Assembly: GCF_052857255.1 (NCBI RefSeq)
Contig: NC_135500.1
Coordinates: 53,283,272 to 53,347,271, forward strand
Origin: Amblyomma americanum
Taxonomy: Eukaryota > Arthropoda > Arachnida > Ixodida > Ixodidae
Length of the DNA stretch: 64,000 nucleotides
Reading direction: 5' to 3'
The position numbers and the translations under genes were made by a program. Below the pieces are notes generated by a model. It was not told the DNA's origin, searched no databases, and was given only the letters and a program-made list of their open reading frames with translations. Positions 21,420 to 33,666 of the stretch are shown here, in pieces (position 1 is the first letter of the stretch; the number at the start of each line of letters is the position of its first letter).

Positions 21420-21494
<75 letters not shown>
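21411..21494. repeat. TA microsatellite
   Basis: About 40 TA units with one GA interruption, ending where the minus-strand Penelope terminal repeat begins. Confidence 0.97.
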
Positions 21495-21497
<3 letters not shown>

Positions 21498-21576
21498 GCG
21501 AAAACTTGAGGTACTTGAATGATTAAAATATTATACATCGAAGTATACACTTCATTTAAAGAAATATTTTTATTTT

Positions 21577-21616
21577 ACTCCACGTTTCGATCGGAGGACC
21601 GATCTTTTTCAAGAGT
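21577..21616 (-). ncRNA. hammerhead-like motif in pseudo-LTR (degenerate)
   Basis: The minus strand reads ACTC, then CTTGAAAAA, then the perfect stem GATCGG-TCCT-CCGATC, GAAACGTG and GAGT. ACTC and GAGT pair as helix I. In this copy GTC after GAAAC is GTG, and the CUGANGA core is UUGAAAA, so cleavage is doubtful. The same layout is in the pseudo-LTRs at 29226 and 33363. Confidence 0.45.
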
Positions 21617-21807
21617 GGCCATACAGTGCATGGGCGCCTGTTCTTATAGCATGGGACTTGACACACAGAAGGTTGAAAAGAAAAATAAATAAAGAAAAGT
21701 AAAGAAAAAAAAGGGGGAGGGGGCGGCCGGGAGAACGGAACACAACAGACACCTATGGCATATTAGGGAAGCCAAGGTGGCGCGTCGCGTACCCGTGAAC
21801 TCACTGC

Positions 21808-21986
<179 letters not shown>

Positions 21987-22110
21987 ACGAAAGAGGGAGG
22001 CCGGGCTGGGTGCGCACGCGGTTACTGCGACAAGAAAAAAGAAAAAAGAAAAATAGAGAGAGAAGCAAAAGCAGAGAAAAAGGGGAAAGCAAAGAGAGAG
22101 AGAGTAAACT

Positions 22111-23049
22111 TTATTGTTCCAATTGAGAGGTTTCATTGGTTCGCTTCGTTTTCAAGAGTATCTTTAGTGCTTTCTTATTGATTCTTCCTGCCATGTAGCA
22201 TCTGCACGCTTCCTGGGAGTCAGTTAAGATTGTGAGAGATTGGTTGGTGCAATAGCCCTCGGCTGCCGCTAGGGCTACGGATATCTCCTCTGCCTCAGCT
22301 ATCGTTCCATCTCTCGTGGATGCACCGCTGATGAGGTCACCTTCCTTCGTTGTTACAACCGAAACTGTTTTCTTGATGCTTTGGCTGCGACCCCATGGAT
22401 ACAGTGTGGCGTCAGTGTACACTACTCGATCTTGTGTGGCTATCTTCGTTTCTACATATTTAGCCCTTCCTGTTGTCGAGTTCCTTAGCCTTTGTATTTG
22501 CGACTTGAATTGTGCCTTACTAAGCACATGAAAAGTGTTGTGCAGCCCCAGTTCTGCCAGCTTGTCGTTTGACGTGTTTCTTGGTAAGTTCAGAGCGGTT
22601 TTGTAGGCTGCTTTGATTAGAACCTCCGTCTGATTTTCCTCGCTTTTGAGCATGTTGTGGTATGGTAGTGAGTAGATTAATCTGCTGATGACTAGGCTGT
22701 TCACTAGTTTCAGCGTGTCACACTCCTTCATGCCGTATCTTCTGGATGATACTCTGGTTATCATGCGGCAAACTTGTTCCGTTGATTTTTTAAGGAGGTT
22801 TATCGTGTGGTTGCATTTGTCGTTGCTCTGTAGCCACATGCCTAAAATTCGAATAGTCTCCTTTTCCGGGATGGTGTTGTCCTCGAGCTTTATTACTAGT
22901 CTTGCATCCGTTGGTTTCTTTCCTATCCTAAGGATTTCCGATTTTTCGGTTGAGCAGGTTAAACCCCTCGTTTTGGTGTATTGCTCAATGCAGGTTGCTG
23001 CCTCTTGCAGTTGGTGTTCCGTCTGCCCCAGTGATCCTGGTTCGACCAT
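22111..23049 (-). pseudogene. LINE ORF2 connection and partial RNase H
   Basis: A 312-codon open frame continues the RT after a frameshift near 23045. LKLVNSLVISRLIYSLPY marks the end of the RT thumb region. VVYTDATLYPWGRS (first Asp of RNase H), TIAEAEEISVALAAAEG (Glu) and LTILTDSQEACRCY (second Asp) follow. The frame then ends in the 3' end of the element. The last RNase H block and the zinc motif found in relatives are missing, an internal deletion. Confidence 0.8.
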
Positions 23050-23963
23050 ATAGATATATCGTCCGCATATATGGCGTGTCCTATGCCCGGGATGTTTTCA
23101 AGTTTCCTTGCCAGACCGATCATGCTTAGGTTAAAAAGGATTGGCGATATAACCGATCCCGGCGGTGTGCCTTTATTTGGTGTGTCTATGGTACCGCTTC
23201 CTATATCTCCTAATCCTACTGTGGCCGTTCTTTCTGTCAGGAAAGATCTTACATAGTCGTGGATTCTCCTTCCGCAGTTGGTATTGTTGATGCCTTCCAT
23301 TATAGCCGCGTGGCTAACTTTGTCGAAGGCCCCTTGGATGTCAATTGCCATAATTATGTTTTCTCCTTGCTGCGGGGAATTGGCAATTACCTCATGTTTG
23401 AGTTGTAGCAGGATGTCTTGCGTTGCCAGGTTTGCCCTGAACCCAAACATGCTATGGGGATACAACTCATTGTCCTCTAGGTAGTTTTGAATTCTTTTGG
23501 TTATAATTCTTTCATAGAGCTTGCCGAGGCAAGATGTGAGTGAAATGGGCCTCAGGTTTTCTATGTGTAGTTTCTTTCCGGGTTTGGGGATCATTACAAC
23601 CATAGAGTGCTTCCATTCCTTGGGCACCAGTCCTGCCTCCCATTGTTTGTTTAGGTAGGTAGTGAGCTGTTCGACTGCCTCGTCACCCAGGTTGCGGATT
23701 AGGGAATTCCTAATTTTCTCTTCTCCAGCTGCTGTGTTTCTTTTGACGGACCTAATTGCAGCGTAGACCTCATCTCTGGAGATCGGTTTGTCTAGCTCCG
23801 GGTTTTCTCTGCCTTTGTACTTTTTTTGATAGGCCGTGGGTTTGTCCTGGCCGTAGCATTTGATGCTGACTGCTTTAAGTAGCTCCTCATCGGTTCCTTC
23901 ATGGTGGTGAACAAGGCGGTGGATGGACTTGTTGCATTCCGTCTTTGTTTTGGTAGGATCCAT
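22959..23963 (-). pseudogene. LINE ORF2 reverse transcriptase
   Basis: A 334-codon frame. Motifs in order: MVVMIPKPGKK, NLRPISLTSCLGKLYERI, MFGFRANLATQD, IMAIDIQGAFDKVSHAA (Asp of the first catalytic block), GTPPGSVISPILFNL and IYADDISIW (catalytic YADD). All catalytic residues are intact. A frameshift after ISIWSN separates it from the rest. The upstream frame at 23982-24461 holds the linker region and RKKRT-type basic segments. Confidence 0.88.
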
Positions 23964-23981
23964 TAGTCTCTTTAAAATCCT

Positions 23982-24461
23982 TCATGTTTTAGTTGTGCTC
24001 AGCGTGCCGTTAAGTGAGTTGCTGAACTGTTCCCAGTTTTGCCTTGCTAACTGCATCGCGTATTCCTCCGCCGTTGCCGTAATTTCGGCGATTCTTTTCT
24101 TTAACTTTCCGTTCCACTTTTGCTTTTTCCATCTTTTCACGAGGCCTCGTCTTGCCTCCCACATCCTGATTAGTCTCGAGTCTATCTCTGGTGTAATCTC
24201 AGTTCTATCTATTTCCTTTGTATACAGCTCTTGTGCTTGACTTAGCTGCTGGGTCCACTCCTCGACTGAGGAGATCTCCCCTTTTATCTGTTTACATTTC
24301 CTGCGGAAGTTATCCCAATCCGTAATTTTGGCCGCACCTATTTTTTTTTTACATATTTGGTCTCTATCGCGGTTCTGATTATGTAGTGGTCGCTTCCTAG
24401 GTTCTCTAATAGATTTGTCCACTCTGCCTGTGCTCCTTTTACGAAGGTTAGGTCTAGGCAT
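23982..24461 (-). pseudogene. LINE ORF2 endonuclease end and linker
   Basis: In a second frame LDLTFVKGAQAEWTNL and NLGSDHYIIRTAI (about 24455-24370) form the last blocks of an apurinic-type endonuclease, including the conserved SDH. The open frame then reads ITDWDNFRRKC and the helical linker to RT. The N-terminal endonuclease is missing because the element is 5'-truncated just beyond the MITE. Confidence 0.75.
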
Positions 24462-24464
24462 GTA

Positions 24465-25188
24465 CAGTATTGTGCGTTTTTATCGCTGACACTTTCAAAT
24501 ATTTCCCCGCCTCACCCGCTGGCTCGTTTGCGGTGAAACTGCACACAGAGCTTGCGTATTATGGTAACTTTTGTACCGTAGCAAGATTGACAATGGTACT
24601 TACTTAGTTCAGGCGCACATGATGCGAAAACGTAAGCGTCTACAAGAGATCGGCGAGCCAAAACCCGCAGACGACGCTTTTTCGCTGAAGACCGGCGGTT
24701 TCGCCATCTGTTTTCGGCAGCGGAAAGCGTCCTAATTAGGCCGCCGAGGCGAGCGTTGCAAGGAGCGCGGGCCCTTTGAATATGCCGATCGGCATTTGCG
24801 TCTGCTTCAACTGAAGGGCTTACAACATTTTCGGCTAATTGAGCGGAAAAATATCAAAACAACTGCTTTAAAGAGGCGAGCCCGCGCTCCTTGCAACGCT
24901 CGCCTCGGCGGCCTGGTCGTAACGTTTTCCGCTGCCGAAAACAGATGGCGCCACTGCCGGTTCTCAGCGAAAAAGCGTCGTCTGCGGGTTTTGGCTCGCC
25001 GATCTCTCGTAGACGCTTACGTTTTCGCATCATGTGCGCCTGAACTAAGTAAGTACCATTGTCAAACTTGCTACGACACAAAAGTTACCATAATACGCAA
25101 GCTCTGTGTGCAGTTTCACCGCAAACGAGCCAGCGGTTGAGGCGGGGAAATTTTTGAAAGTGTCAGCCATAAAAACGCACAATACTGT
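24465..25188. mobile_element. TA-flanked MITE with about 300-bp inverted arms
   Basis: Starts CAGTATTGTGCGTTTTTA and ends with its complement; TA dinucleotides flank it (24463-24464 and 25189-25190). Arms of about 300 bp (24465-24775 and about 24875-25188) are strongly similar around a centre of about 95 bp. TA duplication and CAGT ends point to the Tc1/mariner superfamily. It encodes no transposase. Its removal rejoins the LINE endonuclease frame (VDTCLDLTFVKG). Confidence 0.88.
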
Positions 25189-25474
25189 ATCTACGCTGAC
25201 GCTAAAAGCAAAAAAGAAACGTGGTGGGGCTTAACAAAAGAAGGGATGCGTTTGCCAATTGTGGGTTTCGGCATGCCTCTGGCCGCGTATGTGCGGCCCC
25301 GTGCGACTCCGAAAGATGGCCCGGACGAGGCGGAACAGGTTGAGACCGCCCAAAGTGGCTCCACATGGTGATACGCGAGCCGCTAAAACCAGATGAGCTT
25401 CCCATAGGAGGACCAGATGGAAAGGCTTGTTGACAGGAATGCGAAAAAACAAGAGATATAGCACAGAGAAATTT

Positions 25475-25480
<6 letters not shown>

Positions 25481-25515
<35 letters not shown>
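25481..25515. repeat. short TA tract in Penelope-like 3' region
   Basis: About 17 TA units; the plus copy has a shorter tract here (about 32717). Confidence 0.9.
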
Positions 25516-25517
<2 letters not shown>

Positions 25518-25635
25518 GACAAAAAAAGAAGAAAGAGAAGGGGACATATGGCCCTCGCGGGACCACAGGATGAGTTAAACGGCAGATGGAAACAAGCCGA
25601 AACTGACATGCAACAGGGGTATGACCTCAGACGAC

Positions 25636-26730
25636 TCAGTCAGTGGTGGTACTTTGTCCATTAGGGTTGAAATTTTCTTTGGTTTCTGCCATCGAAAGAG
25701 ACGATAGGGTGTTATGGTTTTCATTGATGCCCTTTAGCACTGTGTTAAATTTGAAAAAAAAGTATGATACGCGTTGTTCGCGCTCCCGGGTGTTTTTAAA
25801 GCTACTCTGCAATATCGTTACTCTAAGTTTATCAAACTCGTGGCCTTTTTCGCGGAGGTGTCTCGAAAGTGGGAGGCCAGGGAGAGATTTAGTATGTGAG
25901 CGGTGGTTATTAAATCTTAATCGGAAGGAATTGTCTGTTTGGCCAGTGTATTGCATCTGACATTCGCCACACTCGAGTATGTAAACAACGTTACTGGAAT
26001 CGCAGTTTAAGTCCTCTCGGATAACATGTTTGAAATCTGAATGGGTACTTTTAGTCAGTGCTGCGGTTTGCATGTGTTTGCAAACTTGGCATCTGCTCTT
26101 TCCGCAAGGTGTGCAACCCACCGGCCTCGGTTTATTAACCGTTGAGTGCACAAGGTGATTTTGTAATTTTTTTGGCCTTCTGTATGTTACCTGGGGGACC
26201 AATGGAAATATTTTTGAGAGCCGCTCACTTTGTTCTATGATATTGAAGTGTTTTTGAAGGATTTTTTTAATATCCGGTAGGTTGTCTGTGAATGTCAGTA
26301 CTAGATTAGAGCGATGCGGTGTTGGCGGGGATTCCGCAGGGATGTGATTACGGTTAGTAAATTCCGCCCTTTTAATGGCATTATCAATTATTGAAGGCGG
26401 GTAGCCCTGCTTCTTTAGAATTTCGCCCATGTGTTTAGCATTATTTTTAAAATCTTCTGATCGAGAGCAAATGCGTTTGCATCGGATAGCCTGTGAGTAC
26501 GGAATTGAAGTTTTGCCATGGCATGGGTGGCAACTGTTGAAATGAAGATATTGTTGTCTGTCTGTGGGTTTTTTATAAACGCTAGTGATTAATGCACCCC
26601 TGTCCACACGAACAAGCACGTCAAGGAAGTTAATGCTATTAGTTGAGTACGCGTGTGAGAAAGAGATATTTGGATGTATGTTGCTGAATGAGGTGATAAA
26701 CGGAATTTGTTTTTCCTCTGTTTCTGCCAA
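25636..26730 (-). CDS. Penelope-like RT end plus GIY-YIG endonuclease
   Basis: A 364-codon open frame. It starts inside the RT thumb (SINFLDVLVRVDRG, then SVYKKPTDRQQYLHF, the block typical of Penelope-like RTs) and continues through the connection (CKHMQTAALTKS with Cys pairs GCTPCGKSRCQVC). It ends in the GIY-YIG nuclease: VVYILECGECQMQYTGQT, then RLRFNNHRS and SRHLREKGHEFD. This domain gives the nick used for insertion. The plus copy has lost it. A stop separates the frame from the RT core upstream. Confidence 0.88.
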   Translation of the reverse strand: MAETEEKQIPFITSFSNIHPNISFSHAYSTNSINFLDVLVRVDRGALITSVYKKPTDRQQYLHFNSCHPCHGKTSIPYSQAIRCKRICSRSEDFKNNAKHMGEILKKQGYPPSIIDNAIKRAEFTNRNHIPAESPPTPHRSNLVLTFTDNLPDIKKILQKHFNIIEQSERLSKIFPLVPQVTYRRPKKLQNHLVHSTVNKPRPVGCTPCGKSRCQVCKHMQTAALTKSTHSDFKHVIREDLNCDSSNVVYILECGECQMQYTGQTDNSFRLRFNNHRSHTKSLPGLPLSRHLREKGHEFDKLRVTILQSSFKNTREREQRVSYFFFKFNTVLKGINENHNTLSSLSMAETKENFNPNGQSTTTD

Positions 26731-26739
26731 ATTATGAAT

Positions 26740-27451
26740 ATGTCATCAAGACAACGTTTCTAAAAAGCCGGTTTTGTTGAATATGAGGAAAGGAAGTCTG
26801 ATTCAATTTTGTTCATAAATATGTTGGCGTAATTTGGTGCCATTTTTGTGCCCATAGCCGTACCACTCGTTTGAAGATAATATGAGTTATTGAATTCGAT
26901 AGTGTTAAGTTTAAGGACCAAACTTGCAAGCGTCTGGATGGCACTTGGACTGGGACAGTCTAGGATGCTGTGTTCTTTATAGGCTCCGACCATGGCCTGT
27001 ATTCCGACGTCATGGGGGATGTTAGTGTAGAGTGACACCACGTCCAGGGTAACTAGGAAAGCGCCATGAGGGAAGGTGACATCGGATAATTCTCTCAGGA
27101 AGTGGTTAGTATCTCGTATGTCAGATGGATGTTTCGGAAATATATGTTTGATGAGGGAATCGATGTAATCAGAGATCGGTTCTGTCAGTGTGCCGACACC
27201 AGAACCAGTCGGTCGCTCGGATGGTCATATTTGTGTAATTTCGGAAGCATGTAAAAGCGCCCCGTGGAGGCATTTTTTGACGTCAGCGCCTTACATATTC
27301 GCCATAGTAATTCACCTTCATCGGTTAGCTTATTCAGAGTTCTTGCTGTGATTCCCTGGTGTTCAGAGGTGGGGTCTGATGATAGTTTCTTATAGAATTT
27401 TGAGTAGTTGAGTTGGCGGTTGGCCTCCTGAATATAATCATCTTTGTCCAA
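26740..27451 (-). pseudogene. Penelope-like reverse transcriptase core, broken
   Basis: Open pieces at 27451-27185 and 27041-26760. STGRFYMLPKLHK (RT block 2), VVSLYTNIPHD (block A, with Asp replaced or shifted), TSGTAMGTKMAPNYANIFM (block B) and CLDDIFIIW (block C) can be read. Block C has LDD where relatives have YIDD or YVDD. A stop in AF-KR just before block C and frameshifts between blocks show that it is dead. Confidence 0.82.
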
Positions 27452-27687
27452 ATTAACTATACCTCAACCCTTGTCGGCGGGCTTAATGACGATGTCGGTT
27501 CGTTTCCTGAGTGAGTCTAAAGCGTTACGTTGTTTTTTTGTGAGGTTGGGTGGGCCAGATTTTCGTGTCCCGAAGGCCTGCAATATGTCCTTCTGTACCG
27601 CTTTAATATATAGATCTAGATATTTATCTCTGCCAGTTTTGGGTGTCCACTGTTCCTGAGATTTCGGGCACCAAGCATTATTTTGGC

Positions 27688-28260
27688 TTATTTTGTCGAA
27701 AAATGTTCCCGTAGTCTAAGTGTCCGGGCAAAGTCATCCAGATCCTTGAGTAATTGGTATTCATTATACTGCCCATTATTCGGGCAGAATTTTAGGCCGT
27801 GTGATTTAACGGACTTTTCGTCGGGAGTGAGTTGCGAGCTTGATAGGTTGATTATATTTTCCGGAAGGTGTGGCTCCCCAGGTGTTCGGACTAATGTGGT
27901 TGTATGTTCGTTTATCGTTTCGTTGTTATTGTCGGGTCGGGATATGTGCGTTGCCAGTTGCAATACCATTGTGCACTCCATACCTGACTCAACAACAATG
28001 CCATCACGAGAGAATTTTTTAAGTTTCTTTGTCCAAATCTGCTTAATTTTGCTCAACTGAAAGACCTCAAGCTCATTTGTCTCGGATGCTGAAAGTACCA
28101 TGCTGTGACGCGCCCGCCTCTCCTCGAGCACTTTAGACAGATGTTAGATCTGTCTAAAGTGCTCAATCGTTATTTTCAGGAGGTTTAAAGAAGCCTTAAT
28201 TAGTTGTTTGCTCCATGCTTCTCGATGGGATTCTGAAAGGTTATTCATGGATGGCGATAG
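27688..28260 (-). pseudogene. Penelope-like RT N-terminal region
   Basis: The frame at 28131-27688 (147 codons) reads TNELEVFQLSKIKQIWTK and HGLKFCPNNGQYNEYQLL, with matching text in the plus copy at 30893-31339. It ends at a TAA that the plus copy shares. The N-terminal part (about 28260-28131) has a small deletion relative to the plus copy around ASIILEER. Confidence 0.75.
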
Positions 28261-28434
28261 GGATACGAGAAGTCCCTTCGGTACAGTTTCTGATTTAAGA
28301 TATATTTGAAGAGATTTTATGTGGAGCTCGTGCCTGATTAGCTTGTCAGTAATACTTCTTAATTTTAAAAAATTCCTAGAGCGAGTGACATTAGCAGAAG
28401 GAGAAATGGTGGACGCGTGAGCCTGGTCAGCCTG

Positions 28435-29064
28435 TCAGTTTTGCTTTAACTTCAGCCGTTGGGCTGAGCCACAGCGTCGTCTGAGGTCATACCTTTGTTT
28501 CGGCGTGGCGACCTCGTGGCCGAAGTTCTGCACGGTTACGGAAGCTTGTTGGGAGCCCAGAGTTGGTTCTGTTGCTGTTGATATGGGAATCCTCCGTGAT
28601 TCTGGGCTTGTCGGAGTGGCAACCGGTGACGTATCGCCCACCACAGCAGGTGTCGGGTGGTTTGGTGCTGAGTATGGGTTCCTGGTGGTAGTGTCTGGTG
28701 CCCGAACTCTTGATGGTTCGGTGGAGCTTGCAGACATGGTGCAGTGCGGTGCTCTGTGTGATGGCGTGGGTAGAAGTGCTTGGTAAGTGGTCGTATTTTC
28801 CTTCGTGCGTCCGGCGTCACTTAAAATTCTTGACGTGTTTTTCGGGTGACACTTCTGACGGCGGCCCTGCAACCCAGCTATCCGTTTATTTTTAATTATC
28901 TGTTCAGCTTCCCCAATGGTCAGGAAATCCGCTGTTGTGGGTGCCCCGGATTCTTCATTGGTTTTGCTTGTGACCTCAAAATAGCTGGCAGCTATTCGGG
29001 TGCTGTGCTCTATGGTGGGTCGATGAATCTTCTCTGATGGTAGGTGATCTTGCCATGGGGCCAA
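28435..29064 (-). CDS. C-terminal part of SGNH-linked ORF, basic and Pro/Thr-rich
   Basis: A 209-codon open frame whose N-terminus (MAPWQDHLPSEKIH) corresponds to the end of the SGNH domain in the plus copy. The rest reads LTIGEAEQIIKNKRIAG, GRRQKCHPKNTSR, a Pro/Ser/Thr-rich linker, and an Arg-rich end (YDLRRRCGSAQ) before a TGA. The segment ITSKTNE reads through where the plus copy has a TAG. The TGA is shared, and the RT region continues in the same frame beyond it. Confidence 0.7.
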   Translation of the reverse strand: MAPWQDHLPSEKIHRPTIEHSTRIAASYFEVTSKTNEESGAPTTADFLTIGEAEQIIKNKRIAGLQGRRQKCHPKNTSRILSDAGRTKENTTTYQALLPTPSHRAPHCTMSASSTEPSRVRAPDTTTRNPYSAPNHPTPAVVGDTSPVATPTSPESRRIPISTATEPTLGSQQASVTVQNFGHEVATPKQRYDLRRRCGSAQRLKLKQN

Positions 29065-29088
29065 GTATTGCCGGCGAGCACTGAGGAT

Positions 29089-29350
29089 AGGTGTCTGTTG
29101 TGTTCCGTTCTCCAGGCCACCCCCTCCCGCTTTTTTTCTTTACTTTTCTTTATTTATTTTCTTTTTCAACCTTCTGTGTGTCAAGTCCCATGCTATAAGA
29201 ACAGGCGCCCATGCACTGTATGGCCACTCTTGAAAAAGATCGGTCCTCCGATCGAAACGTCGAGTAAAATAAAAATGTTTCCCTAAATGAAGCGTATACT
29301 TCGATGTATATTATTTTAAGCAGTCAAGTACCTCATGTCTTCGCAACTAC
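29089..29350 (+). repeat. 5' pseudo-LTR, plus copy
   Basis: Direct match of 33227-33440 (GTGTCTGTTGTGTTCCGTTC, GTGTCAAGTCCCATGCTATA, GATCGGTCCTCCGATCGAAA, AAATGAAGCGTATACTTCGA), continued by a segment ending CGCAACTAC that is also at the end of the minus 3' copy (21494). It ends just before the start codon at 29360. Confidence 0.82.
29226..29265 (+). ncRNA. hammerhead-like motif, 5' pseudo-LTR
   Basis: ACTC (helix I), CTTGAAAAA in place of CUGANGA, helix II GATCGG-TCCT-CCGATC (6 bp), GAAAC, GTC (expected cleavage site) and GAGT (helix I partner). Only the 5' core deviates. Helix III would be ACG/CGT-like and intermolecular. Confidence 0.5.
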
Positions 29351-29359
29351 TTTTCTTCA

Positions 29360-30055
29360 ATGGCTGCCAATAACGCTTCAAGGAACGTTTTCTGGAAATT
29401 TCCCCTCGACGCGCCAACATGGGCCCTGATTGGAGACTCCCAGACGAAACACATATACCACCACTTCGACGCATCTAGCCTGTGTGCCCCAGCCTTCATC
29501 TCGCAACTCGGAGCCGAAATCATTGACGTGGGGAACCTCCTGGACTTCGTGCCTCCCAGTGTAAGAGGACTGATTCTTCATTTGGGAACGAACGACATCT
29601 ACAGAACAAGCATTGAGGCTGCCCTCAGTCGTTACGAAGAAGCACTCAAGATCATCCGCACAGCACGGCCTGATATCGAGGTGATATACGCCACATTAGT
29701 TCTGCCGCGGGCCCCTAAACGCAGACATGGTTCCAGAAATTGGCGAATGGTGGACAAATTCAATCAGTGCGCCACCACCAGGTTCAACAGCAGACTTATA
29801 GAATTGTGTGCTCAGAACCAAAATGTGTTCTACATCTTTCACTCGCTGGAGGCACTCCCCGCTACCAGGGTCCGAGCTGCTGATGGCGTGCACTTAAGTT
29901 TCGGGGGGGTTTCGTTGCTCGCCTGGAATGTCTTCAACATTATCCTCAGTGCTCGCCGGCAATACTTGGCCCCATGGCAAGATCACCTACCATTAGGGAA
30001 GATTCACCGACCCACCATAGAGCACAGCACCCGAATAGCTGACAGCTATTTTTAG
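29360..30055 (+). CDS. SGNH/GDSL hydrolase-like N-terminal domain of Penelope-like element
   Basis: A 231-codon frame from ATG at 29360 to a TAG. It has the SGNH blocks in order: WALIGDSQTKH with Ser27 (codon 29438-29440), GAEIIDVGN with Gly near 51-58, LILHLGTNDIY with Asn78, and AADGVHLSFGG with Asp175 and His178. No signal peptide was seen. Such esterase folds are known in ORF1 of CR1/L2-type LINEs; here it sits in front of a Penelope-type RT. The TAG replaces GAG of the minus copy, so the stop is a recent nonsense change. A catalytic role is inferred from motifs only. Confidence 0.75.
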   Translation: MAANNASRNVFWKFPLDAPTWALIGDSQTKHIYHHFDASSLCAPAFISQLGAEIIDVGNLLDFVPPSVRGLILHLGTNDIYRTSIEAALSRYEEALKIIRTARPDIEVIYATLVLPRAPKRRHGSRNWRMVDKFNQCATTRFNSRLIELCAQNQNVFYIFHSLEALPATRVRAADGVHLSFGGVSLLAWNVFNIILSARRQYLAPWQDHLPLGKIHRPTIEHSTRIADSYF

Positions 30056-30595
30056 GTCACAAGCAAAACCAATGAACAAGCCGGGGCACCCACAACAGCG
30101 GATTTCCCGACCATTGCGGAAGCTGAACAGATAATTAAAAATAAACGGATAGCTGGGTTGCAGGGCCGCCGTCAGAAGTGTCACCCGAAAAACACGTCAA
30201 GAATTTTAAGTGACGCCGGACGCACGAAGGAAAATACGACCACTTACCAAGCACTTCTACCCACGCCATCACACAGAGCACCGCACTGCACCATGTCTGC
30301 AAGCTCCACCGAACCATCAAGAGTTCGGGCACCAGACACTACCACCAGGAACCCATACTCAGCACCAAACCACCCGACACCTGCTGTGGTGGGCGATACG
30401 TCACCGGTTGCCACTCCGACAAGCCCAGAATCACGGAGGATTCCCATATCAACAGCAACAGAACCAACTCTGGGCTCCCAACAAGCTTCCGTAACCGTGC
30501 AGAACTTCGGCCACGAGGTCGCCACGCCGAAACAAAGGTATGACCTCAGACGACGCTGTGGCTCAGCCCAACGGCTGAAGTTAAAGCAAAACTGA
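30056..30595 (+). pseudogene. linker region of the SGNH-RT frame
   Basis: In the same frame as the SGNH domain after the TAG. It reads ITSKTNE-like text, KRIAGLQGRRQKCHPK, a Pro/Thr/Ser-rich stretch and YDLRRRCGSAQRLKLKQN before TGA (30593-30595). Beyond the TGA the frame stays open into the RT. It may be one long polyprotein with a mutated codon, or a stop that is read through; the minus copy has the same TGA. Confidence 0.65.
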
Positions 30596-31339
30596 CAGGC
30601 TGACCAGGCTCACGCGTCCACCATTTCTCCTTCTGCTAATGTCACTCGCTCTAGGAATTTTTTAAAATTAAGAAGTATTACTGACAAGCTAATCAGGCAC
30701 GAGCTCCACATAAAATCTCTTCAAATATATCTTAAATCAGAAACTGTACCGAAGGGACTTCTCGTATCCCTATCGCCATCCATGAATAACCTTTCAGAAT
30801 CCCATCGAGAAGCATGGAGCAAACAACTAATTAAGGCTTCTTTAAACCTCCTGAAAATAACGATTGAGCACTTTAGACAGATGTTAGCATCAATAATACT
30901 CGAGGAGAGGCGGGCGCGTCACAGCATGGTACTTTCAGCATCCGAGACAAATGAGCTTGAGGTCTTTCAGTTGAGCAAAATTAAGCAGATTTGGACAAAG
31001 AAACTTAAAAAATTCTCTCGTGATGGCATTGTTGTTGAGTCAGGTATGGAGTGCACAATGGTATTGCAACTGGCAACGCACATATCCCGACCCGACAATA
31101 ACAACGAAACGATAAACGAACATACAACCACATTAGTCCGAACACCTGGGGAGCCACACCTTCCGGAAAATATAATCAACCTATCAAGCTCGCAACTCAC
31201 TCCCGACGAAAAGTCCGTTAAATCACACGGCCTAAAATTCTGCCCGAATAATGGGCAGTATAATGAATACCAATTACTCAAGGATCTGGATGACTTTGCC
31301 CGGACACTTAGACTACGGGAACATTTTTCGACAAAATAA
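30596..31339 (+). pseudogene. Penelope-like RT N-terminal region, plus copy
   Basis: Continues in phase after the TGA: FLKLRSITDKLIRHELHI, then NLSESHREAWSKQLIKASL (the helical N-terminal block of Penelope-like proteins), TNELEVFQLSKIKQIWTK and GLKFCPNNGQYNEYQLL. A TAA at 31337-31339 ends the phase and the following text (NNAWCPKSQEQWTP) is in another phase. The minus copy shows the same break. Confidence 0.75.
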
Positions 31340-32834
31340 GCCAAAATAATGCTTGGTGCCCGAAATCTCAGGAACAGTGGACACCCAAAACTGGCAGAGA
31401 TAAATATCTAGATGTATATATTAAAGCGGTACAGAAGGACATATTGCAGGCCTTCGGGACACGAAAATCTGGCCCACCCAACCTCACAAAAAAACAACGT
31501 AACGCTTTAGACTCACTCAGGAAACGAACCGACATCGTCATTAAGCCCGCCGACAAGGGTTGAGGTATAGTTAATTTGGACAAAGATGATTATATTCAGG
31601 AGGCCAACCGCCAACTCAACTACTCAAAATTCTATAAGAAACTATCATCAGACCCCACCTCTGAACACCAGAGGATCATAGCAAGAACTCTGCATAAATT
31701 AACCGATGAAGGTGAATTACCATGGCGAATAAGTAAGGCGCTGACGTCAAAAAATGCCTCCACGGGGCGCTTTTACATGCTTCCGAAATTACACAAATAT
31801 GACCATCCGAGCGACCGACTGTTTCTGGTGTCGGCACACTGACAGAACCGATCTCCGATTACGTCGATTCCCTCATCCAAAATATACCTCCGAAACATCC
31901 ATCTGACATACGAGATACTAACCACTTCCTGAGAGAATTATCTGATGTCACCTTCCCTCATGGCGCTTTCCTAGTTACCGTGGTCGTGGTGTCACTCTAC
32001 ACTAACATACCCCATGACGACGGAAGACAGGCCATGGTCGGAGCCTATAAAGAACACAGAATCTTAGACTCTACCAGTCGAAGTGCCATCGAGACGCTTG
32101 CAAGTTTGGTCCTTAAGCTTAACGCTTTCGAATTCAATAAATCATATTATCTTCAAACGAGTGGCACGGCTATGGGCACAAAAATGGCACCAAATTACGC
32201 CAACATATTTATGAACAAAATTGAATCAGACTTCCTTTCCTCATATCATACCAAACCGGATATTTACAAACGTGTTCTTGATGACATATTCATAATTTTG
32301 GCAGAAACAGTGGAAAAACTAATTCAGTTTATCACGTCATTCAGCAACATACATCCAAATATCTCTTTCTCACACGCGTACTCATCTAATAGCATTAACT
32401 TCCTTGATGTGCTTGTTCGTGTTGACAGGGGCTTATTAATCACTAGCGTTTATCAAAAACCCACAGACAGACAACAATATCTTCATTTCAACAGTTGCCA
32501 CCCATGCCATTGCGAAACTTCAATTCCGTACTCACAGGCTATCCAATTCAAACGCATTTGCTCTCGATCAGAAGATTTTCAAAAAAATGCTAAACACATG
32601 GGCGAAATTCTAAAGAAACAGCGCTACCCACCTTCAATCATCGACGATGCCATTAAAAGGGCGGAAGTTACTAACCGTAATCACATCCCTTCTCTTTCTT
32701 CTTTTTTGTCATTGTATATATATATATATATTTTTTTTTTTGAAATTTCTCTGTGCTATATCTCTTGTTTTTTCGCATTCCTGTCAACAAGCCTTTCCAT
32801 CTGGTCCTCCTATGGGAAGCTCATCTGGTTTTAG
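31340..32834 (+). pseudogene. Penelope-like RT core, plus copy, GIY-YIG deleted
   Basis: Pieces: TKKQRNALDSLRKRTDIVIK and PADKG followed by TGA (31340-31563), KDDYIQEANRQLNYSKFYK and STGRFYMLPKLHK (31576-31842), then 31980-32690 with VVVSLYTNIPHD, TSGTAMGTKMAPNYANIF, VLDDIFIIL (LDD at 32277-32285), NFLDVLVRVDRG and YQKPTDRQQYLHF. At about 32688, after NRNHIP, the sequence jumps to the 3' region, losing the GIY-YIG domain present in the minus copy. The PADKG-TGA is in both copies. Confidence 0.8.
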
Positions 32835-32989: not shown

Positions 32990-33440
32990 CTCCACGTTTC
33001 TTCTTTGCTTTTCCCTTTTTCGCTGCTTTTGTTTCTCTCTCTCTTTTTTCTTTTTTCTTGTCGCAGTAGCCGCGTGCGCACCCAGCCCGGCCTCCCTCTT
33101 TCGCCTCGTGTGTGCGTGTGTGTGTGTGTGTGTATGTGTGCGTGTGTGCGTGTGTGTGTGTGTGTGTGTGCAGTGAGTTCACGGGTACGCGACGCGCCAC
33201 CTTTGCTTCCCTAATATGTCATAGGTGTCTGTTGTGTTCCGTTCTCCGGGCCGCCCCCTCCCCCTTTTTCTTTTCTTTACTTTTCTTTATTTATTTTCTT
33301 TTTCAACCTTCTGTGTGTCAAGTCCCATGCTATAAGAAGAGGCGCCCATACACTGTATGGCCACTCTTGAAAAAGATCGGTCCTCCGATCGAAACGTCGA
33401 GTAAAATAAAAATGTTTCCTTAAATGAAGCGTATACTTCG
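32990..33440 (+). repeat. 3' pseudo-LTR, plus copy
   Basis: Begins near TTTGCTTTTCCC, contains an interrupted TG tract (33112-33171), GTTCACGGGTACGCGACGCG, and the section shared with the 5' pseudo-LTR, and stops at ACTTCGATATATATATG, where a long TG tract replaces the last about 70 bp seen at the other ends. Confidence 0.82.
33363..33402 (+). ncRNA. hammerhead-like motif, 3' pseudo-LTR
   Basis: Same sequence as at 29226-29265: helix I ACTC/GAGT, degenerate 5' core, 6-bp helix II, GAAAC, GTC. Confidence 0.5.

Positions 33441-33666
<226 letters not shown>

Follow-up and report, generated by a model that had tools for sequence, protein, structure and literature searches.

The stretch of Amblyomma americanum DNA analysed here (64,000 nucleotides, hereafter the window) raises the question of whether an esterase-like domain in front of a reverse transcriptase (RT) is part of the same element, and how an RT behind a stop codon would be translated. 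An earlier note had described an SGNH hydrolase-like domain between a pseudo-LTR and a Penelope-type RT, in one phase with the RT across two stops, and had proposed that this was a new domain architecture for Penelope-like elements (PLEs). The frame is real, it lies where it was described, and it is in frame with the RT. Taken as a whole, the earlier reading is partly supported: what has to be revised are the nature of one of the two stops and the claim of novelty.

The features of the locus are listed in Table 1. The core of the 5′ pseudo-LTR recurs at 33221-33448 with 95.6% identity and, together with its tail, at 21756-21493 on the minus strand with 93.9% identity; the tail (the last ~40 bases) is present in the first and third copies only. 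An inverted copy of the element abuts the 5′ pseudo-LTR on its left and is interrupted by an insertion of ~3.1 kb (about 22096-25203). Three pseudo-LTR copies, two of them with the tail, and a partial inverted copy identify the element as a PLE, as does a GIY-YIG endonuclease domain 3′ of the RT, which was found in the inverted copy and in the related database protein P0020 and is gone from the direct copy. The GIY-YIG match of the inverted copy is below the cut-off of 22.6 bits (8.1e-4, 20.1 bits) and that of P0020 above it (6.1e-5); likewise, the window RT scores below the RVT_1 cut-off and P0020 above. At the break of the deletion in the direct copy there is a 4-nt overlap, the counterpart in the inverted copy running from 26338 to 25542. 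A similarity search with the RT returned 834 proteins at E ≤ 1e-10, and most of the 120 listed have RVT_1 and part of them GIY-YIG; the RT is assigned to PLEs by this similarity.

Table 1. Features of the Penelope-like element in the window (positions in the window; strand relative to the window).
Feature	Positions	Strand	Remarks
5′-truncated inverted copy	21493..29089	-	96.8% identity over 2754 bp to direct copy
RT end, Cys-rich linker and GIY-YIG frame of inverted copy	25636..26742	-	
5′ pseudo-LTR	29087..29351	+	core 29087-29311 plus tail of ~40 bp; ends compared
ORF1	29360..30595	+	411 codons and TGA; one internal TAG at 30053-30055
SGNH hydrolase domain	29360..29971	+	residues 1-204
Low-complexity linker	29972..30535	+	variable in homolog alignment
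RYDLR (conserved YxLR box near ORF1 end)	30536..30550	+	
Conserved in-frame TGA, ORF1/ORF2	30593..30595	+	
Spacer	30596..30658	+	21 codons, open in ORF1/ORF2 frame
Conserved ORF2 start (FLKLR..SPS)	30659..30781	+	41 codons; ATG-free in the window
ORF2 frameshift	31324..31339	+	common to inverted copy; tblastn of P0020
TGA within ORF2	31561..31563	+	also in inverted copy
Penelope-type reverse transcriptase core	31812..32684	+	77% identity to P0020
Internal deletion breakpoint, direct copy	32687..32690	+	~795 bp gone, including GIY-YIG region
3′ pseudo-LTR	33221..33448	+	repeat of 5′ core

The element in the window is a dead copy, and the tick PLE to which it belongs comprises several families. 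Beyond the lesions in Table 1, a second frameshift near 31803-31842 is common to the direct and inverted copies. As the two frameshifts and the TGA within ORF2 occur in both, these lesions either predate the pair or spread by gene conversion. The differences between the direct (29931-32690) and the inverted copy (26338-29089) are very unevenly spread: 19 differing columns in 29931-30130 (10 of these an end gap), none in 30131-30730, 12 in 30731-30930, 1 in 30931-31530 and 67 in 31531-32690. Such a pattern would fit gene conversion, or else a template that was itself a mosaic.

Several further observations concern the surroundings. The insertion that splits the inverted copy in its 3′ part contains a LINE, in which frames for an RT and an RNase H-like domain were recognized by eye (22111-24479, minus strand); beside it lies a 310-bp inverted repeat (24463-24772 / 24880-25189). 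Between 34103 and 34943, four tRNA matches on both strands sit within repeats spaced 584 bp apart, which are probably tRNA-derived SINEs. Hammerhead ribozymes are common in the pseudo-LTRs of PLEs, though absent from some; the interval 29050-29365 gave no Rfam match to a hammerhead up to E 10. A 23-base hairpin with GAAACGT is identical in the three pseudo-LTRs (29238-29260, 33375-33397, and 21582-21604 on the minus strand); by eye it resembles a hammerhead remnant and lacks the canonical CUGANGA box.

All four SGNH blocks are present in ORF1 (Ser, Gly, Asn and Asp-x-x-His), and fold searches returned the SGNH hydrolase fold. The best match to a solved structure by sequence is the esterase of ZfL2-1 ORF1 (PDB 4c1b, E 8.5e-11), which appeared in sequence searches only and was absent among the best 50 matches of each fold search. 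The transposon-specific histidine of ZfL2-1 (H191) aligns to H74, before GTND, and is kept in 15/15 sequences; S228 of ZfL2-1 aligns to A111 or T/S112, and position 112 is Thr or Ser in all 15. The SGNH frame has 17 database homologs (E-values down to 1e-59), and the 14 that are named all come from hard ticks. In ten of the 17, a YxLR/YxTR box begins 14-17 residues before the C-terminus; nine of these combine SGNH, linker and box in a single ORF of 309-397 residues, and the tenth (P0017, 242 residues) misses part of the SGNH domain. The remaining seven, truncated or differently ended, have no box near their end. A more distant ORF1 clade is P0014-like. Among the genome contigs, one bacterial relative was found (24% identity), which we took as an ordinary cellular esterase. 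Viral contigs gave 38 and 6 pattern matches, none of them related, and 0 for the pseudo-LTR pattern.

Does the SGNH domain belong to the PLE at all? It might instead have reached the place between pseudo-LTR and RT separately, by insertion of a CR1/L2-type LINE or by chance capture; ORF1 of CR1/L2 elements typically has an SGNH domain, and among solved structures the nearest relative is a CR1-clade ORF1. We searched the host genome (2.56 Gb, 429 contigs) for the SGNH region, scoring 150 out of 632 candidates, and fetched 10 kb around the copies ranked 2-21 as well as six further loci from more distant copies. The loci were thus chosen by SGNH similarity. A PLE RT ORF lies downstream on the same strand in 19 of the 20 higher-ranking stretches, some of which overlap or adjoin on contig 5 (exception L029), and in five of the six more distant loci (exception L033). 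Overall, a PLE RT is found 3′ of the SGNH domain on the same strand in 24 of 26 fetched loci. At least four families can be separated by how closely their SGNH regions match that of the window: F1, the window's own family (best other copies 82-89%), F2 (about 60%), F3 (about 49%) and F4 (L035, 55%). The arrangement is kept in families whose SGNH regions are merely 49-61% identical to the window, and ORF1 starts just 8 bases 3′ of the pseudo-LTR tail, both of which argue against an insertion. Further, a CR1/L2 LINE would have RT and an APE endonuclease in its ORF2, whereas the relatives of this ORF2 have RVT_1 and GIY-YIG. The genome copies thus refute a CR1/L2 insertion, to which we assign practically no probability. 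Two outcomes named in the earlier note as fatal to it, namely other copies without the SGNH frame and an inserted LINE as its source, did not occur; the sole LINE inspected in the window lies within the 3′ portion of the inverted copy, not next to the SGNH domain. The SGNH domain belongs to the PLE, as the first part of its ORF1.

The two stops in the SGNH-RT frame turned out to be of different kinds. Eight homologs aligned with the window (six from named ticks, two of unnamed source) all end just past the YxLR box, at a place matching the TGA at 30593; one of the stops is therefore native and one is damage. The TAG at 30053 occurs in the direct copy only, and the inverted copy has GAG there. 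Judged from these alignments, the TAG is damage of this copy, and the TGA is the conserved end of ORF1 rather than a lesion. The YxLR box is present in F1-F3 and reads YDRR in F4.

ORF2 follows the TGA in the same frame in all four families, F4 included. Measured from stop to stop, six loci consist of 448 codons, TGA and 954-955 codons (L024, L025, L026, L027) or of 386 codons, TGA and 923 codons (L031, L032); some of these six loci are close relatives or neighbours and do not represent six independent cases. Counted from its ATG, ORF1 of L026 has 435 codons. The part 3′ of the TGA holds RT and GIY-YIG, domains that were scored in the relatives P0020, P0022, P0030 and P0047. Sixteen loci were inspected at the junction, a set that leaves out L010, L014, L016 and L029; a single phase runs through the conserved block in 12 of them and in the window, and four are out of phase (L013, L015, L019, L021). 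L028 has at least one further stop downstream.

A genome census with the junction peptide (150 scored out of 796 candidates) extended this. Of 136 matches spanning the junction, counted as such when they start at query residue 38 at the latest and reach at least residue 60, 133 contain a TGA, and 99 have exactly one TGA and no further stop. Three are without TGA, two being stop-free and one having TAA only. Taking frame length to run through stops in the match, as the value for L024 implies (1404 = 448 + 1 + 955), exactly one TGA is present in 32 of 34 frames of at least 1000 codons and in every one of the 11 that reach 1300. A junction match with TAA and without TGA is seen at G000:C4:32533735-32534106, in a 1051-codon frame. 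The intact SGNH-RT-GIY-YIG frame which the earlier note had envisaged did not turn up: the longest uninterrupted frame around the SGNH domain among the 150 scored copies has 516 codons, and none of 916 candidate database proteins of 627-1995 aa contains this SGNH domain at E ≤ 0.001. An HMM of ORF1 likewise had no match in the ORF2 proteins (120 listed of 834 passing the threshold). The census, the limit on SGNH frames and the protein searches together indicate that the TGA is kept and rarely lost or exchanged. We are nearly certain of the coding layout: one frame interrupted by one conserved TGA, with SGNH, linker and YxLR box before it, RT and GIY-YIG after it, and pseudo-LTRs on both sides.

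At the beginning of the conserved ORF2 block lies a T6A4 run (30655-30668). About a dozen census matches start, and a similar number stop, at query residues 61-71, where this run is located; many copies therefore shift frame there.

How ORF2 would be translated is less obvious, as its frame in F1, F2 and F3 contains no ATG for 62-65 codons past the TGA; the first in-frame ATG of the window ORF2 is at 30782. Between FLKLR and this first Met, the 41 codons show pN of 0.20-0.27 against pS of 0.56-0.85. Differences by codon position are 11/6/25, 14/8/29 and 14/4/17 in three pairs, and dN/dS is 0.22 in one pair, dS being saturated in the other two. From this protein-like substitution, the 41 codons must be translated. 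The spacer between TGA and block measures 20, 21, 24 and 24 codons in the four families, and these 89 codons contain zero stops; it varies more than the block (dN/dS 0.50 in the single measurable pair). There are exceptions to the missing ATG. F4 has one at the eighth codon of the block, L022 (an F2 copy) has a Met codon 7 codons past the TGA, and 8 of 40 relatives have their initial Met within the block or ahead of it (P0022, P0026, P0030, P0034, P0037, P0043, P0051, P0058), so that some families may start ORF2 normally. By the alignment of their first residues, 16 of the 40 relatives begin at 30782 or beyond it and 10 at 30704-30758. The other 14 align further upstream, and five of these look like alignment artefacts (P0023, P0039, P0041, P0050, P0053). 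The leader of P0010 was rejected as a homolog of the pseudo-LTR tail, its score being reached in 1495 of 2000 shuffles. Among predicted proteins of sea turtles, P0021 combines a PLE RT with PRY/SPRY, and P0071 combines one with what we take, from the Pfam accessions, to be RING-type zinc fingers; both are either gene-model fusions or captures.

In F1-F3, ORF2 is in frame, has no ATG near its start and follows a conserved stop, which is the combination expected of readthrough; spacers of whole codons without stops and a translated block before the first ATG also fit readthrough of the TGA. It remains to weigh this against other ways of reading the same junction.

One of them is that the single frame is an ancestral accident, ORF1 and ORF2 being in phase by chance and without selection. 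Being related, the four families do not count as independent trials, and the chance of a shared phase is 1/3. Nevertheless, the three spacer lengths require at least two changes, both of whole codons, the 89 spacer codons of the four families together are stop-free, and constraint at the protein level acts on the codons that precede the first ATG. We regard an accident as rather improbable.

Equally improbable in our estimate is that ORF2 is started on its own, from a non-AUG codon or from a lost or family-specific AUG, by reinitiation or internal entry. Termination-reinitiation is described for LINE-1 and SART1 in a passage of PMC5972666, and the Met residues in or before the block in 8/40 relatives would suit such a start. 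By eye, the block has an Ile codon, ATT in F1 and F2 and ATA in F3 and F4, which offers a weak near-cognate start at the same place in each family; the codon after it is GTG in F2 and ATG in F4. However, the FLKLRK before this Ile is kept in F2-F4 with synonymous differences only, and nearly so in F1 (by eye); kept as protein, it makes translation appear to begin further upstream. An independent start would also leave the frame agreement with ORF1 without a reason.

The main rival to readthrough is alternative splicing, where the TGA would be intronic, or would be bypassed by use of a 3′ splice site within the spacer, so that spliced RNA joins ORF2 to ORF1 or to a different 5′ exon. By eye, the spacers of F1-F3 are rich in pyrimidines and have TAG or CAG a short way ahead of the block. 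Introns in PLEs have reportedly been published, going by the title of Arkhipova 2003. On the other hand, the likeliest intron in F1, from AG|GTATGA at 30538 to the TAG at 30654, was rejected, since F2 has neither of its splice sites. Moreover, the spacer is open and in frame in four families, and an intron would need neither. The lack of longer SGNH frames and proteins in the searches above also speaks against splicing, which we consider unlikely.

Readthrough of the UGA itself, as suggested by the pattern at the junction, we put at an even chance. Most ribosomes would halt at the TGA and yield the ORF1 protein, and a minority would pass the UGA and yield a fusion of SGNH, linker, RT and endonuclease. 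The RT would then enter the particle through its ORF1 part, as in gag/gag-pol, and the esterase part would serve the ribonucleoprotein in assembly and in contact with lipid membranes. The base after the TGA is C, C, T and T in F1-F4, and since it varies, no single leaky context is kept. Twelve single-sequence foldings around the TGA gave no stable RNA structure that might stimulate readthrough (z from -1.7 to +2.0). We further count against readthrough the ATG of F4, the Met of L022, the Met starts in 8/40 relatives, the 4/16 out-of-phase loci, the 3/136 junctions without TGA and the frame shift at the block in about a dozen census matches. The architecture, the proposed readthrough and the role of the esterase are together the best explanation of the locus, and we give this reading as a whole a probability of roughly 55%.

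Murine leukaemia virus has gag and pol in one frame, with a stop between them that is read through. Such gag/gag-pol comparators are LTR elements, whereas ORF1 of the tick PLE is esterase-like, not gag, and its readthrough is proposed here from sequence. In the LTR element Tca2, a stop separates the first ORF and the RT ORF as in the tick PLE, and a passage of PMC7175516 reports that this similar stop gave no readthrough when tested, which also counts against the proposal. One of the closest parallels for the esterase is ORF1p of ZfL2-1, a LINE of the CR1/L2 clade, in which SGNH is likewise part of a gag-like ORF1. In ZfL2-1 a coiled coil precedes the esterase, which is C-terminal; in the tick PLE the esterase is at the N-terminus, ahead of linker and YxLR box, and ORF2 encodes a PLE RT with GIY-YIG. 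According to part of PMC3905857, the ZfL2-1 esterase weakly hydrolyses an ester analogue and binds anionic liposomes. By analogy, the tick esterase may have a lipid role, which we consider rather doubtful.

An SGNH domain in PLEs is known, so the novelty claimed for it earlier does not hold. Schneider 2013 already noted SGNH-bearing PLEs from RepBase, with the esterase in ORF1p, the same catalytic residues and the histidine before GTND (H191), as in the tick element (text excerpts of PMC3905857). The legend in that paper names transposon esterases of chordates, cnidarians and sponges; the present case adds ticks and a conserved TGA between in-frame ORFs. Passages in PMC5408684 and PMC6431247 describe an accessory GDSL ORF, as in the tick PLE, for the Athena PLEs and Terminons of bdelloid rotifers, which are up to 40 kb long, endonuclease-deficient and telomeric, with many ORFs. 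The tick PLE differs in being compact and in having GIY-YIG and paired pseudo-LTRs. With Penelope/Poseidon it shares the tailed pseudo-LTR, inverted partial copies and RT plus GIY-YIG; those elements, as portrayed in sections of PMC3846280 and PMC11167929, have one ORF starting at the pseudo-LTR, where the tick PLE has its SGNH ORF1. The pseudo-LTR tail is optional in rotifer Penelope elements, and inverted pseudo-LTR arrangements are known for PLEs (PMC3846280, in part). The usual picture of a PLE, as given in an excerpt of PMC6431247, is a compact element whose RT and endonuclease share one ORF. Our literature search, which covered mostly openly readable papers by title or start of abstract, found, among the papers listed, no in-frame stop between ORF1 and ORF2 described for a PLE; a single frame separated by a stop was thus not found in print.

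If readthrough is true, tick PLEs would have a recoded polyprotein of a kind that we did not find described for any Penelope-like element. Tick PLEs would then follow an economy like that of gag/gag-pol, making an excess of lipid-handling SGNH ORF1 protein and a minority of SGNH-linker-RT-GIY-YIG readthrough product, a picture we hold tentatively and at slightly less than even odds. An esterase-like ORF1 in the position of gag and in frame with the RT offers a way to ask what transposon esterases do. Dozens of long open copies (34 with junction frames of at least 1000 codons) make two questions testable that the tick PLE raises: whether the RT itself must carry the esterase domain, and whether PLEs, like LTR elements, evolved recoding.
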